From a virus: a DNA stretch of 59,385 bases. Shown piece after piece: positions 19,333-28,260 of this stretch. Every line of letters starts with the position of its first letter. The first letter of the stretch is position 1. The notes beneath the pieces are model-generated. The model saw nothing but the letters and a program-made list of their open reading frames with translations, searched no databases and was not told where the DNA came from. The stretch lies in the IMG/VR virus record IMGVR_UViG_3300029309_000033, positions 1 to 59,385 of that record, one strand, 5' to 3'. The translations under genes were made by a program, and so were the position numbers.

Positions 19333-20235
19333 TTATGCTCCAATAGTTCGAATAACTTTTATTTTATTATTCTTACTCAAGCCTTTATTATAAGCCTCGA
19401 CTAGCTGTAAGTCCCAAGATTCTTGATTATTACAAGTTTTAAACATATCAACATTTTTTGACATTTGTTTAACACCAGTCATAACATTCCAAGATCCTGC
19501 TGAGTTAGGCGCAATCATATTTTGCGTTTTAACCCAAGCCATACAGAACTTACCATTAGATACTAGTAACGGAACTTTAGCTTTTATTTTTTTAAGTTGA
19601 CTACCGTATTTCTCGGCAGCGTGTAAGTTTTTAATTTTAAACTTACCTTCTTTAAAAGCTTTGTTAGAGTTACCACCACCATGATACACAAAATTACCTG
19701 ACAATAAATTTATACTGACAGAAAAATTTAAACTGTAATCATCAAAGAATTTTTTAACCTTTCGGTATTCTTGATGATTTTTATGATTCTTATGACTAAA
19801 ACATTTCAAATAATCTCTGTTCTTCCAAGACTTTTGATTATTATTCATAAGAATTGTATCTTGTATACTAGCACCATCTGATATTATGTATAAAACAGGA
19901 ATATCTAATAGGATACACGCTTTTACTCTATGCTGTCCCTCACATATTTCCCATTTTTCGTTAATAACGATAGGTTGCAACTGGCCATTCTTTTTGATAG
20001 ACTCAGCTAGACGCTTTACATCACCGTCATCTGTGTCCCGATTATCTTCCAAAAATTTTAGTTTATCCCAATCTTTGGTTAATCGGACACTAGATAAAGT
20101 TTGCTGATCTTTATAGGTGTTAAACTTTACATCATGACCCAAAAATTTAGCCTTTGTTGATCCTATCATAAAAGGCGGCAAAGTTAGGTCTTTCGGTTTA
20201 ACACTTATATTTAGCTTTCGCTTTTTCTTAGACAT
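19333..20235 (-). CDS. ParB/sulfiredoxin-fold nuclease-like protein
   Basis: 300 aa. Residues 70-115 carry the ParB N-terminal motif: DVKRLAESIKKNGQLQPIVI and WEICEGQHRVKACILLDIPV, with the GxHR-like EGQHR loop. The rest (KNHQEYRKVKKFFDDYSLNF, GGGNSNKAFKEGKFKI) is unlike plasmid ParB, so this is probably a phage ParB-like enzyme (nuclease or NTPase) rather than a partition protein. Followed by a terminator. Confidence 0.75.
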   Translation of the reverse strand: MSKKKRKLNISVKPKDLTLPPFMIGSTKAKFLGHDVKFNTYKDQQTLSSVRLTKDWDKLKFLEDNRDTDDGDVKRLAESIKKNGQLQPIVINEKWEICEGQHRVKACILLDIPVLYIISDGASIQDTILMNNNQKSWKNRDYLKCFSHKNHKNHQEYRKVKKFFDDYSLNFSVSINLLSGNFVYHGGGNSNKAFKEGKFKIKNLHAAEKYGSQLKKIKAKVPLLVSNGKFCMAWVKTQNMIAPNSAGSWNVMTGVKQMSKNVDMFKTCNNQESWDLQLVEAYNKGLSKNNKIKVIRTIGA

Positions 20236-24623: not shown

Positions 24624-24691
24624 TTTTTAAACCTATCCTTAATTCTTTTTATAGGTCTTAAAATCCATCTTCTTATAAATTTTTTAATCAT
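24620..24691 (-). CDS. Very short basic peptide, 23 aa
   Basis: MIKKFIRRWILRPIKRIKDR, then FKK. GGAG seven bases before the ATG, an ATGA overlap with the Cys-rich gene and overlap with the upstream stop support translation. Nine Lys/Arg and alternating hydrophobic residues make an amphipathic helix, like a membrane-active peptide. Confidence 0.4.
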   Translation of the reverse strand: MIKKFIRRWILRPIKRIKDRFKK

Positions 24692-25334
24692 GTTTTTTCT
24701 CCTCAATCTCGTAAAAGAAGTCATCAGTATCTGATGTCTTCCATTCACCAGTATCTTCTACATTCCATTCAGATGTCTGCACTTTCCAGTTAGGAATTTC
24801 GTCTTTAACCGTGAATGAAGGTATATCCCAAATTATTCTATTATTTGGTTGCGCAGCAAAGTTGCCATCGTCTAATTCTAATATGTGCGCACACTTGTGT
24901 TCGTGTGGTATCTCTGAATGTTCAGCGTCTACTATATTACAATCTGGGTGTGCCCAGTCAATAGTAAATAAATATTTTCCTCGGTGCCACTTCCTATCTT
25001 TTCCCATGTATTTACCATGGGTGCCTTGGATTATATCCCAATTAGTAACAGCAGGATAATAACTAAAGCAATTCCAAAGCTCCAACTCGTCAAGTCTACG
25101 TTTAGGAACTTCTTCTGGTTTAAAGCCTCGCTGTATGAAGGCAGATATCGGGAGACGATAAAAGATAGCCCCGCTTTCCATAATTGCATGGCATAAGATA
25201 GCAGTCCCAGCAATAGATGTAATGCCGAAGACAATACAGTCTTCAACTTCTCCGTGATGTTTTTTAAGATCATATAAATACTCCCTTCGTATTTGTGCAT
25301 AAATCGGCGGTATATTTGCATTTAAGTAAGCCAT
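24684..25334 (-). CDS. Conserved protein, 216 aa, unknown
   Basis: MAYLNANIPPIYAQIRREYL at the preferred ATG (a TTG six bases upstream is less likely). Contains EVEDCIVFGITSIAGTAILC, ESGAIFYRLPISAFI and CFSYYPAVTNWDI, with HRGKYLFTIDWAHPD. Acidic C-terminus. I recall close relatives after the DNA polymerase gene in marine phages. No catalytic motif recognised. Confidence 0.65.
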   Translation of the reverse strand: MAYLNANIPPIYAQIRREYLYDLKKHHGEVEDCIVFGITSIAGTAILCHAIMESGAIFYRLPISAFIQRGFKPEEVPKRRLDELELWNCFSYYPAVTNWDIIQGTHGKYMGKDRKWHRGKYLFTIDWAHPDCNIVDAEHSEIPHEHKCAHILELDDGNFAAQPNNRIIWDIPSFTVKDEIPNWKVQTSEWNVEDTGEWKTSDTDDFFYEIEEKKHD

Positions 25335-25343
25335 AGTCAATCC

Positions 25344-27185
25344 TCATTTTATTTCTCCCCAGTTCTTACCAAACTCATAATCCACTTTACTTGGTATCTC
25401 TAACTCAACTGCGGATTCCATAATCTCTTTTATATGTTTTGCTTTTATATCACTTTCCACAGATATATCTAGTTCATCATGTACTTGTATATGTGCAACA
25501 ATGCCCTCCTTATATAACTCTAACATAGATTTTTTTGTCATATCTGCGGCTGATCCTTGTATTAATTTATTCAAAGCTTTGTAAGTATAAGCACGCCTGA
25601 TACCTGCTCCATGTTCCTGACGAGCTTGTTCAAAAGGTAACGCTTTGTGAACACCAAATCTACTAGGCTCCCACAAATGAAACCTGCATAATCTACCAAG
25701 TAAAGTTCGTATCTGCCCTCTTTGTTGTGCTCTGTTAGACACAGAGTTCATTAAAGTTTTAACAAACGGAACTCTTTCATGATAAACAGTAAATAGCTCT
25801 TCAGCTTTTTCTTTCGATACACCTAACTCTGCTTGTAGTTTTGCTTTACCCATGCCATAAAATAATCCAAGATTAATTGTTTTTGCTTGAGTTCTAGGTA
25901 TGTCAGCCATCTTCGCAACGATTGTGTGAAAGTCTGCATCGTCTTGTAAGTAAGAGTCCTTAACACTGAAGACGCTTGTATCTTGATCTAGGGATGCATA
26001 GTGAACTACTAATCTAGGTTCTTGTTGATTATAGTCAAAGCATCCCCACTCACAACCAGATTCAGGAATAAAGAGGGATCTGATCAATGGTCCTAAGTCT
26101 TTGTTGCGAGCAGGAATTTGTTGTAGATTTGGATTAGAGTAACTAAATCTACCAGTTACTGTGCCTCCTGTATCAGATCTAATCTGATTTATATCTGCAT
26201 GTATTCTACCTTTGTGTTCGTGTTTTATAATTGTATCTATGAATGTCGTATGTGCCTTGTTTATTTCTCTGGCTTTTGATATGCATTTTACTAAAGGATG
26301 TTTATGTGTAGACAAGAAATTTTTTGTAAAGGATGGTGCTTGTGTTTTTAAAGTTCTTTCATACGGTAAGTTTAGTTTATCAAACACTTTGGCTATCGAT
26401 CTTGCTGCCCATATTTGAGTATCTACTCCTGTCTCTGTTTTTACTTTTTGCAGGAGTTCTTTTTCTTCTGATGCTAATTGTTGCTTCATTGTGTGAGCTT
26501 TTTGAACATCTACTCTCACTCCTAAAAAACGCATGTCTACTAAACAAGGAAAAAGATCTGTTTCTAAATCAAAAATAGAATTTAAATCTTGATCCATTAT
26601 TTCTTTCTGCATTATCTTCCACAGTCCATACGTTAACTCTGCATCACGTTCAGCATAATTACCCACATACATCGCAGGTAGTTTCCACATGTCAGCTTTT
26701 GAATCTATGCCCCATTCTTTTGCAGCGTTGTTTAGTTCTGTTTCATTTTTACCTTGACTTAAATAGTCCCAACCAAGTGATCCAAGATCATATCTAAACC
26801 TATTTTCGTTTACGAGTGATGCTGCAATCATGGTATCAATTATAGTTCCGTTAATTGGTATGCCCATGGCCCTAATCCAACACACATCGTACATGGCGTT
26901 GTGAAATATTTTTGTAGAGGTAGTTTTACAAATGTCCGTAAACCATTGAATTACTTTACTTTTTTCTAGATTACCACCACCTTCATGATCGAATGGAAAG
27001 TATCCAGAATAACCCTCTGTCGCAACTGCAATGCCTACAACCTTACCTTTACCGATTACAGAACCAGACCCCATAGTTTTTAAGTCTGGGTCGTGTGTTT
27101 CTAAGTCAATTGCAATCTCTTCACAAAATCTTAAATCTGGAAACTCTTTGGGTTTAACCCACTCCGTCTGTGCCTTAAATATCAT
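25344..27185 (-). CDS. polA: DNA polymerase, family A with 3'-5' exonuclease
   Basis: 613 aa. The exonuclease domain has IAIDLETHDP (Asp27, Glu29), FHNAMYDVCW and YAERDAELTY. The polymerase domain has motif A CFDYNQQEPRLVVHYAS, motif B RTQAKTINLGLFYGMGKA and motif C QVHDELD near 575. No 5'-3' exonuclease. T7-like replicative polymerase. Starts 11 bases inside the methyltransferase gene's end. Confidence 0.95.
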   Translation of the reverse strand: MIFKAQTEWVKPKEFPDLRFCEEIAIDLETHDPDLKTMGSGSVIGKGKVVGIAVATEGYSGYFPFDHEGGGNLEKSKVIQWFTDICKTTSTKIFHNAMYDVCWIRAMGIPINGTIIDTMIAASLVNENRFRYDLGSLGWDYLSQGKNETELNNAAKEWGIDSKADMWKLPAMYVGNYAERDAELTYGLWKIMQKEIMDQDLNSIFDLETDLFPCLVDMRFLGVRVDVQKAHTMKQQLASEEKELLQKVKTETGVDTQIWAARSIAKVFDKLNLPYERTLKTQAPSFTKNFLSTHKHPLVKCISKAREINKAHTTFIDTIIKHEHKGRIHADINQIRSDTGGTVTGRFSYSNPNLQQIPARNKDLGPLIRSLFIPESGCEWGCFDYNQQEPRLVVHYASLDQDTSVFSVKDSYLQDDADFHTIVAKMADIPRTQAKTINLGLFYGMGKAKLQAELGVSKEKAEELFTVYHERVPFVKTLMNSVSNRAQQRGQIRTLLGRLCRFHLWEPSRFGVHKALPFEQARQEHGAGIRRAYTYKALNKLIQGSAADMTKKSMLELYKEGIVAHIQVHDELDISVESDIKAKHIKEIMESAVELEIPSKVDYEFGKNWGEIK

Positions 27186-28260
27186 TTACAACCTTTTTTA
27201 TAGCTAGTCCTATTTCTTTTGCGATTTGCGGGACGATAGCATTTCCCAATCCTTTAAGTCGGTGTACTCTGCCGGGTACCCCATTAGCCACTCTACCCAC
27301 ATTGGGTTCAACGCTCCACCAGCTGTTCCCGCTAGTCTGCTTTTCTTTTTCGCTGTTTCGTAATTCGTGTTCAGCCATGAATCTTTCCAATCTCTTGCTG
27401 TAGGTGTTGGCATCATGGCTATTCTCTCCTCTAATCTCGCCTTGTCTACTCCTCTCCTCTTGATGTTTTCCATGTTCTCCGACATGGCTTTCGATGCTCT
27501 TGGAGTTGGCCACATTTGTTTTGGTGGTGGATATATAACTTGCTCTCTCAGTGTCGAATGAGTGGTTCGACCCTTTCTGTTTTTTTGATATTGTTTCTTT
27601 AATTCCTTCTCGTTCCTTGGAGGCAAGCTGTCCATTGCGTTCGGCGTAAGCCACATTTGTTGAACTTGTTGATTCAGAGGTGGCACTTGTCCCCCTCCAG
27701 GATGTGGTTTTCTCGGCTTCGTTATGTTGTTTGAGTCGAATGTTGTCGGGGTTGACCATAGATTCTTCTCTGTTGGCAATAATCCAGACTCTTTCTCTCC
27801 GATGGGGAGCACCGACGCCTGCAGCTGGAATAATGAACGGTTGAACTTCGTAGCCTTCACTTTCCAAGTCAGTGCACACAGTTTCGAAGACCACGCCGTC
27901 TTGGATGTTAATAATATTTTTGACATTCTCCCCAATAACGAATTGGGGTTTGATCTCCCTAATGAGTCTAAACATTTCTGGCCAGAGATGTCGGTCGTCA
28001 CTCGTTCCTTTCTGTTTGCCTGCGACTGAAAATGGTTGACATGGGAAACCTCCGCAAATGACATCTGCCTCTCCTTCTTTTCCTTTGACATTTTTTATAT
28101 CCTCCTCGATTGGTATGTTGGGAAAGTTTTTTTGTAAAACTTTCTGACAGTATTTATCTTTCTCTACAAACTTCACTGTCTCAAAAAAGTTTGTTGAATC
28201 TAATCCTAACGTAAAACCACCTATGCCTGAAAATAAATCCAAAACTTTTAATTTTTTCAT
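27175..28260 (-). CDS. dcm: DNA cytosine-5 methyltransferase
   Basis: 361 aa. Motif I LDLFSGIGGFTLG, motif IV GGFPCQPFS (catalytic Cys74), motif VI GENVKN (110-115), motif VIII APHRRERVWI and the C-terminal RLKGLGNAIVPQIAKEIG (motifs IX and X) are all present. The target region (about 165-310) is built of repeated VAN/VNP-like units (NVAYAERNGQ, NVANSKSIES) and is Ser/Thr/Glu-rich. It could protect phage DNA from restriction. A second long gene lies inside in another frame. Confidence 0.9.
   Translation of the reverse strand: MKKLKVLDLFSGIGGFTLGLDSTNFFETVKFVEKDKYCQKVLQKNFPNIPIEEDIKNVKGKEGEADVICGGFPCQPFSVAGKQKGTSDDRHLWPEMFRLIREIKPQFVIGENVKNIINIQDGVVFETVCTDLESEGYEVQPFIIPAAGVGAPHRRERVWIIANREESMVNPDNIRLKQHNEAEKTTSWRGTSATSESTSSTNVAYAERNGQLASKEREGIKETISKKQKGSNHSFDTERASYISTTKTNVANSKSIESHVGEHGKHQEERSRQGEIRGENSHDANTYSKRLERFMAEHELRNSEKEKQTSGNSWWSVEPNVGRVANGVPGRVHRLKGLGNAIVPQIAKEIGLAIKKVVNDI
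27210..28064 (-). CDS. Out-of-frame 284-aa protein nested in the methyltransferase gene
   Basis: Read in the +1 frame from ATG at 28064, with AAGGAG six bases before it (also coding GKEGEAD for the methyltransferase). It stays open for 284 codons in AT-rich DNA. The protein begins MSFAEVSHVNHFQSQ, shows four W/M-x-TP-x-x-x-D units (LWSTPTTFDS, MWLTPNAMDS, MWPTPRASKA, MPTPTARDWK) and ends with GGALNPMWVEWLMGYPAEYT. By memory these motifs recur in small phage proteins near methyltransferases. Function unknown; a methylation partner is a guess. Confidence 0.6.
   Translation of the reverse strand: MSFAEVSHVNHFQSQANRKERVTTDISGQKCLDSLGRSNPNSLLGRMSKILLTSKTAWSSKLCALTWKVKATKFNRSLFQLQASVLPIGEKESGLLPTEKNLWSTPTTFDSNNITKPRKPHPGGGQVPPLNQQVQQMWLTPNAMDSLPPRNEKELKKQYQKNRKGRTTHSTLREQVIYPPPKQMWPTPRASKAMSENMENIKRRGVDKARLEERIAMMPTPTARDWKDSWLNTNYETAKKKSRLAGTAGGALNPMWVEWLMGYPAEYTDLKDWEMLSSRKSQKK

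Follow-up and report, generated by a model that had tools for sequence, protein, structure and literature searches.

Our analysis indicates that a cytosine methyltransferase locus in this virus record very likely specifies, in nested reading frames, the two chains of a DNA (cytosine-5) methyltransferase, a reading to which we assign a probability of roughly 0.87. That both open reading frames (ORFs) are real and both are under selection is shown, as are the change of constrained frame, the exchange of modules, and the match in position to the recognition/IX part of single-chain relatives; complex formation, enzymatic activity, the action of modules as recognition units, and a role in anti-restriction are inferred. 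The window (the whole stretch of DNA that was analysed, 59,385 nucleotides) is a 59.4-kb virus record with genes for a terminase, a portal, a family A DNA polymerase, a primase, and a helicase. Two other genes in it were recorded in passing: the ORF directly downstream of the DNA polymerase (24684 to 25340, minus strand) has its best match in PHROG_3704 (ferredoxin; moron/auxiliary metabolic category), and the ORF at 19333 to 20235 (minus strand) encodes a ParB-like partition/nuclease protein with a further match, to the ParB-like portion of a DNA methyltransferase family. The two nested ORFs, here termed alpha and beta, and their landmarks are:

27175 to 28260, minus strand: alpha, a C5 cytosine methyltransferase ORF of 361 aa with motifs I-VIII and X.
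27210 to 28091, minus strand: beta, a +1-frame ORF nested inside alpha, 293 aa (284 aa from the ATG at 28064).
28101 to 28107, minus strand: GAGGAGG, Shine-Dalgarno-like, 9 nt upstream of the ATG at 28091.
28071 to 28076, minus strand: AAGGAG, Shine-Dalgarno-like, 6 nt upstream of the ATG at 28064.
28036 to 28044, minus strand: alpha motif IV, PCQ, with the catalytic Cys (from translation and alignment).
27778 to 27810, minus strand: alpha motif VIII block, APHRRERVWII; the frame of constraint changes right after it.
27301 to 27780, minus strand: alpha variable region, aa 161-320, open, with residues nearly unconstrained; it encodes the beta module array in the +1 frame.
27226 to 27285, minus strand: alpha motif X block, NGVPGRVHRLKGLGNAIVPQ, overlapping beta's proposed motif IX.

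Alpha is readily recognised as a C5 enzyme, matching PF00145 (E=9.3e-58) and carrying motifs I, IV (PCQ), VI (ENV), and VIII. Its alignment to M.HhaI is limited to alpha residues 4-167, which correspond to motifs I-VIII, and the motif X block is visible in the alpha translation. The original prediction had described a second frame open for 284 codons with AAGGAG six bases before its ATG; this held, and the ORF extends to 293 codons with an upstream ATG.

The simplest objection is that the hidden frame is no gene and stays open passively, only because alpha's composition leaves few +1 stops. Long alternative frames do occur in methyltransferase genes, as in streptococcal single-chain controls with about 160 open +1 codons, and this lends the objection some support. 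Codon shuffling contradicts it: across 2,000 synonymous shuffles preserving alpha, the longest +1 ORF averaged 81 codons and never exceeded 192 (observed, 294), and in 77 of 86 loci not one of 2,000 such shuffles reached the observed +1 ORF. Shuffles preserving beta, conversely, introduced a mean of 11.3 alpha stops per locus, against none observed in any of the 105 distinct loci. The objection is further contradicted by a tenfold depletion of alpha-silent changes in the module array (see below), by conservation of the nested frame in all 80 loci selected on alpha, by conservation of the start and its Shine-Dalgarno sequence, and by the independent annotation of beta in phages K1ind3 and Rani. 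On the shuffles in both directions together with the substitution-class tests we rejected the passive-ORF reading, which is all but excluded.

As a separate observation, the +1 frames of the streptococcal phage single-chain C5 methyltransferases (L250, L253, and L255) are open for approximately 160-168 codons and share a similar end, LSDILExEVDxxxxLSEE; these frames may be dual-coded as well or may only shadow conserved motifs.

The nested pair recurs widely. An alpha-only query of viral contigs retrieved 80 loci, 80 of which carry a nested +1 beta, and the same arrangement was found in all analysable viral loci selected on beta. When bacterial and prophage contigs were searched with a beta profile, 73 of 80 loci were cleanly nested and the other seven lacked a clean nested pair. 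Matched phage records include Paenibacillus, Lacticaseibacillus, Vibrio, Rhodobacter, Escherichia, Klebsiella, and Mycobacterium phages, with nesting confirmed by eye or script for a subset. The nested ORF reaches 535-541 codons in relatives, so that the window locus, first suggested to be one of the longest dual-coded regions in a small phage, is not a record. In L001 (uncultured phage Deep1-GF2-KM23-C739) and L241 the frames of the nested pair are broken, reflecting sequencing errors or gene decay.

We located selection along the locus by classing isolated substitutions between close pairs according to their effect in each frame and comparing them with mutational opportunity, using alignment-based landmarks. 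The resulting counts are strong rather than exact, as some pairs are related by descent and the expectations rest on simple mutation classes. In the overlap up to motif VIII, alpha-silent changes were in excess (108 observed versus 40.8 expected, 22 close pairs), as they also were upstream of the beta start. Across alpha residues 161-320, the same 22 pairs contained only 6 alpha-silent, beta-changing substitutions against 64.8 expected, and 219 beta-silent, alpha-changing ones against 74.3. The next divergence class gave a matching result between motifs VIII and X (18 versus 125.0 and 458 versus 179.7, respectively), as did the window and its relatives L009 and L021 taken alone (2 versus 8.1 and 27 versus 9.4). 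In 20-codon steps, the alpha-synonymous rate is 2.14 ahead of the end of motif VIII (residue 160) and 0.05 beyond it, rising again once motif X is reached at residue 321; the beta-synonymous rate across motif VIII is 0.58 before and 3.3 after. These data show a division of labour in which the alpha frame is constrained up to motif VIII and the beta frame from VIII to X, with a sharp hand-over at VIII.

Simultaneous constraint in both frames is confined to alpha residues ~101-160 (beta SLLGRMSKILLTSKTAWSSKLCALTWKVKATKFN...) and ~321-345 (WVEWLMGYP over motif X); elsewhere a single frame dominates although both stay open. In the middle region, no beta-silent change created an alpha stop, where the three divergence classes should by expectation have held 19.8, 42.2, and 26.3 such changes (~88 in total). 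Alpha must therefore be read through to motif X, while its residues between VIII and X hardly matter, and alpha alone has no constrained recognition region or motif IX in that interval. Constraint on the second frame had been set beforehand as a check on the prediction, as had stop codons in homologous methyltransferases: purifying selection on the second frame proved strong, and no stop interrupted the hidden frame in any of the 80 loci from the alpha search (80/80), so neither check refuted it.

Beta's reading frame appears to have its own start. The ATG at 28091 lies one codon past an in-frame stop in the window, and its position relative to motif IV (-47 nt) is the most frequent among homologues. 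In 79 of 102 loci a beta start follows a Shine-Dalgarno sequence of 4 nt or more, with a mean score of 4.4 compared to 1.3 in shuffles. These features bear on a second rival, in which ribosomes translating alpha shift into the beta frame, yielding a fused chain of motifs I-VIII, array, and IX beside the full alpha chain. Such a mechanism would fit the change of constrained frame exactly after motif VIII, where a shift gives a normal-looking chain. Against it stand the separate Shine-Dalgarno start in most loci, the in-frame stop just upstream in the window, and the constraint on the beta segment over motifs V-VIII, which a late frameshift would not require. We consider frameshifting very unlikely, though no systematic search for slippery sequences was made. 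Separate initiation of beta remains the preferred reading.

The beta protein consists of a conserved N-terminal segment, one to seven modules headed by W/M-x-T-P (mostly 30-50 residues, ~40), and a terminal GxLNPxWVEWLMGYP motif. In the window these are:

27813 to 27899, minus strand: conserved N-terminal segment of beta, TAWSSKLCALTWKVKATKFNRSLFQLQAS, a predicted hairpin constrained in both frames.
27657 to 27761, minus strand: beta module 1, LWSTPTTFDS..LNQQV, module cluster 10.
27516 to 27656, minus strand: beta module 2, MWLTPNAMDS..LREQV, cluster 0, with a different module in the close relative L009.
27417 to 27515, minus strand: beta module 3, MWPTPRASKA..LEERI, cluster 2.
27318 to 27416, minus strand: beta module 4, MMPTPTARDWK..LAGTAG, cluster 15, a last-position type.
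27261 to 27317, minus strand: beta motif GALNPMWVEWLMGYPAEYT, the proposed motif IX, with invariant columns in 48 homologues and an hhalign match to single-chain enzymes.

The original prediction had noted four W/M-x-TP units and repeats echoing in both frames, and both claims held: the units are LWSTP, MWLTP, MWPTP, and MMPTP, and alpha's NVANS, NVAYA, and DANTY are encoded by the same DNA as beta's MWPTP, MWLTP, and MPTPT. Constraint in this part of the locus acts on the beta frame, so no separate function need be sought for the alpha repeats, which are shadows of the beta modules. A further claim, that two motifs recur in related proteins, held in part, with LNPxWVEWLMGYP conserved and the N-terminal MSFAEV not.

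Family and structure searches say little about what beta does. The window beta matches PHROG_1008, labelled 'DNA methyltransferase' (E=2.6e-22), as do 48 of 48 homologues; no Pfam or NCBIfam family model matches it, and its profile found nothing credible among PDB sequences. An AlphaFold model of beta alone, built with 48 sequences, was poor (pLDDT 57, pTM 0.26), and no PDB fold match was obtained, a search on such a model being meaningless; a model of the short beta homologue L071 (30 sequences) was likewise of low confidence. Separately, module 3 of the beta in L027:2495-4075 (cluster 16) is unusually long (about 145 aa) and contains, in the nested frame, a stretch that by eye resembles a helix-turn-helix (KELHEKTGIKKTTVEHWFRR), to which Pfam found no match.

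Stronger clues come from the position that beta-like sequence occupies in related enzymes. In canonical C5 enzymes, the interval from motif VIII to motif X holds motif IX and a variable (recognition) region (PMC3404938). In single-chain enzymes of the Gordonia phage Jabberwocky type, one frame runs from motif VIII through two to five LLPTP modules and RLNAAFAEWMMMLPAGHVT to motif X, and the beta profile aligned to the terminal motif in this interval (hhalign E=2.1e-6 over 23 columns, a single comparison). In two bacterial loci (L204:2747-4047 and L245:2492-3690), motifs I-VIII form one ORF, and the beta modules, the LNP motif, and motif X are fused in an overlapping next ORF. No match to the canonical motif IX (RKLTPRECxRLQGFPD) was found when beta was compared by hhalign with six canonical single-chain enzymes. 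A BLOSUM matrix scan for motif IX ranked the LNP motif first in 80 of 124 betas; scores were weak, and this is suggestive at most. Since the modules and LNP motif sit between VIII and X in single-chain relatives, we regard beta as the counterpart of the recognition region plus motif IX. Beta thus likely supplies these parts, and alpha motifs I-VIII and X, with complex formation, activity, and DNA recognition inferred. On the same positional grounds, the earlier suggestion of a partner with influence on target choice is the best reading and well supported computationally, its activity and association with alpha again being inferences.

A third rival holds that beta is real but unrelated to methylation, for example an anti-restriction or regulatory phage factor overprinted on dcm rather than a subunit. 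The absence of any recognised Pfam or NCBIfam domain or confident fold leaves room for this view. It is opposed by the beta modules and LNP motif filling the VIII-X interval of single-chain enzymes, by the fusion of beta to motif X in L204 and L245, by alpha's lack of a constrained recognition region, and by the constant pairing in the viral loci examined, where every beta came with an alpha in the same frame relation. An unrelated factor is accordingly very unlikely, and a subunit carrying the recognition region remains our preferred interpretation.

The module array is evolutionarily mobile. We grouped 432 modules from 115 distinct loci into 74 clusters, which occur in many orders and positions, with one to seven modules per protein. 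Module pairs at least 85% identical were shared by enzymes whose catalytic regions were less than 60% identical in 132 cases; in 69 of these the two modules differ in ordinal position. Between the window and L009, which are near-identical over most of the gene and have flanks mostly >95% identical, the DNA across module 2 is unrelated; in L021, modules 1 and 2 are missing. Both frames remain open after every module exchange. Such swaps and deletions resemble target-recognition-domain shuffling and suggest a mosaic specificity array, though target recognition by individual modules is inferred. The exchangeable sequence modules typical of multispecific enzymes are thus shown; DNA recognition and methylation of more than one motif are inferred.

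We propose that the alpha chain would provide the cofactor-binding and catalytic motifs I-VIII, plus motif X, and that beta would be translated separately, in the +1 frame, from the same message via its own internal ribosome-binding site. The beta module array may read the DNA target, with GxLNPxWVEWLMGYP acting as a putative motif IX equivalent, and the two chains would assemble into a single enzyme. The alpha stretch between VIII and X would be filler, kept open so that translation reaches X, and modules would be acquired, deleted, and exchanged as DNA cassettes without stops in either frame. Fragment complementation is experimentally known for C5 enzymes split after motif VIII (M.SssI and others; PMC3404938), making the two-chain proposal mechanically plausible. 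By exchanging modules, the phage may alter its methylation targets, and probably also increase their number, and so evade host restriction. Protection of phage DNA against restriction is probably the biological role, an inference. No restriction gene was noticed beside the window methyltransferase locus, and no restriction enzyme was adjacent to related genes at the two enterobacterial plasmid loci inspected. We lean, by a narrow margin, towards a bolder reading: a widespread and largely unrecognised class of phage methyltransferases whose specificity is held in the nested array, with one target per module, dual-open cassettes travelling between phages, and the alpha variable region only a stop-free shadow.

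Annotation of these loci is inconsistent, with alpha alone annotated in Bas70 and Bas80, beta alone in phiEc4, and both in Rani and K1ind3. We observed that which single frame is annotated varies by record among Escherichia phage phiEc4 (L249:1903-2715), Mycobacterium phage Hades (L251), and Bas70 and Bas80 (L273 and L274). Should beta prove to be the recognition chain, an enzyme cloned from the annotated gene alone would be dead or unspecific, and the anti-restriction repertoires of phages would sit in an overlooked frame. The locus is also a clean natural example of two frames on one stretch of DNA between which constraint is handed over sharply.

No paper on dual-frame phage methyltransferases was found in the literature searched. 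Two-polypeptide C5 enzymes are already known; the papers searched did not describe how widely the nested pair occurs, how sharply constraint passes between frames, or the shuffling of module arrays. Beta belongs to or adjoins an uncharacterised group comprising PHROG_1008, the 'internal gene' Rani_51, and the 'Mte8-like protein' K1ind3 ORF29, whose records give no recognition-subunit function and leave the paired frames unexplained. Phage C5 methyltransferases of the SPR, phi3T, and rho11 type are single chains combining several exchangeable recognition modules with one catalytic core. Their modules are of similar size, a likeness drawn without sequence comparison, but lie in one frame and one chain, whereas here they are on a nested second chain. 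M.AquI is likewise a two-subunit C5 methyltransferase split after motif VIII, its second chain holding part of the recognition region and motif IX; however, that chain also has motif X and the variable region is divided between chains, an arrangement to which only L204 and L245 are comparable.

The closest known enzyme is M.EcoHK31I (YGGCCR; Lee, Kam and Shaw 1995), a natural two-polypeptide C5 methyltransferase (PMC3404938, PMC3439449) whose large chain, like alpha, has motifs I-VIII and X and whose small chain has motif IX (PMC3404938). In that enzyme the gene for the small chain lies inside the large-chain gene, in a different frame. Its small chain has motif IX, whereas beta matches only the motif of single-chain relatives (E=2.1e-6) and not the canonical one. 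Unlike M.EcoHK31I, the enzyme described here is from a phage, has no restriction partner that we could see, and carries one to seven exchangeable modules. The predicted target-recognition domain of M.EcoHK31I was placed in the large subunit (PMC3404938), whereas here the large chain is unconstrained between VIII and X and the constrained array lies in beta. Our data offer a testable proposal for EcoHK31I-like enzymes, in which the location of the recognition domain would be revised.
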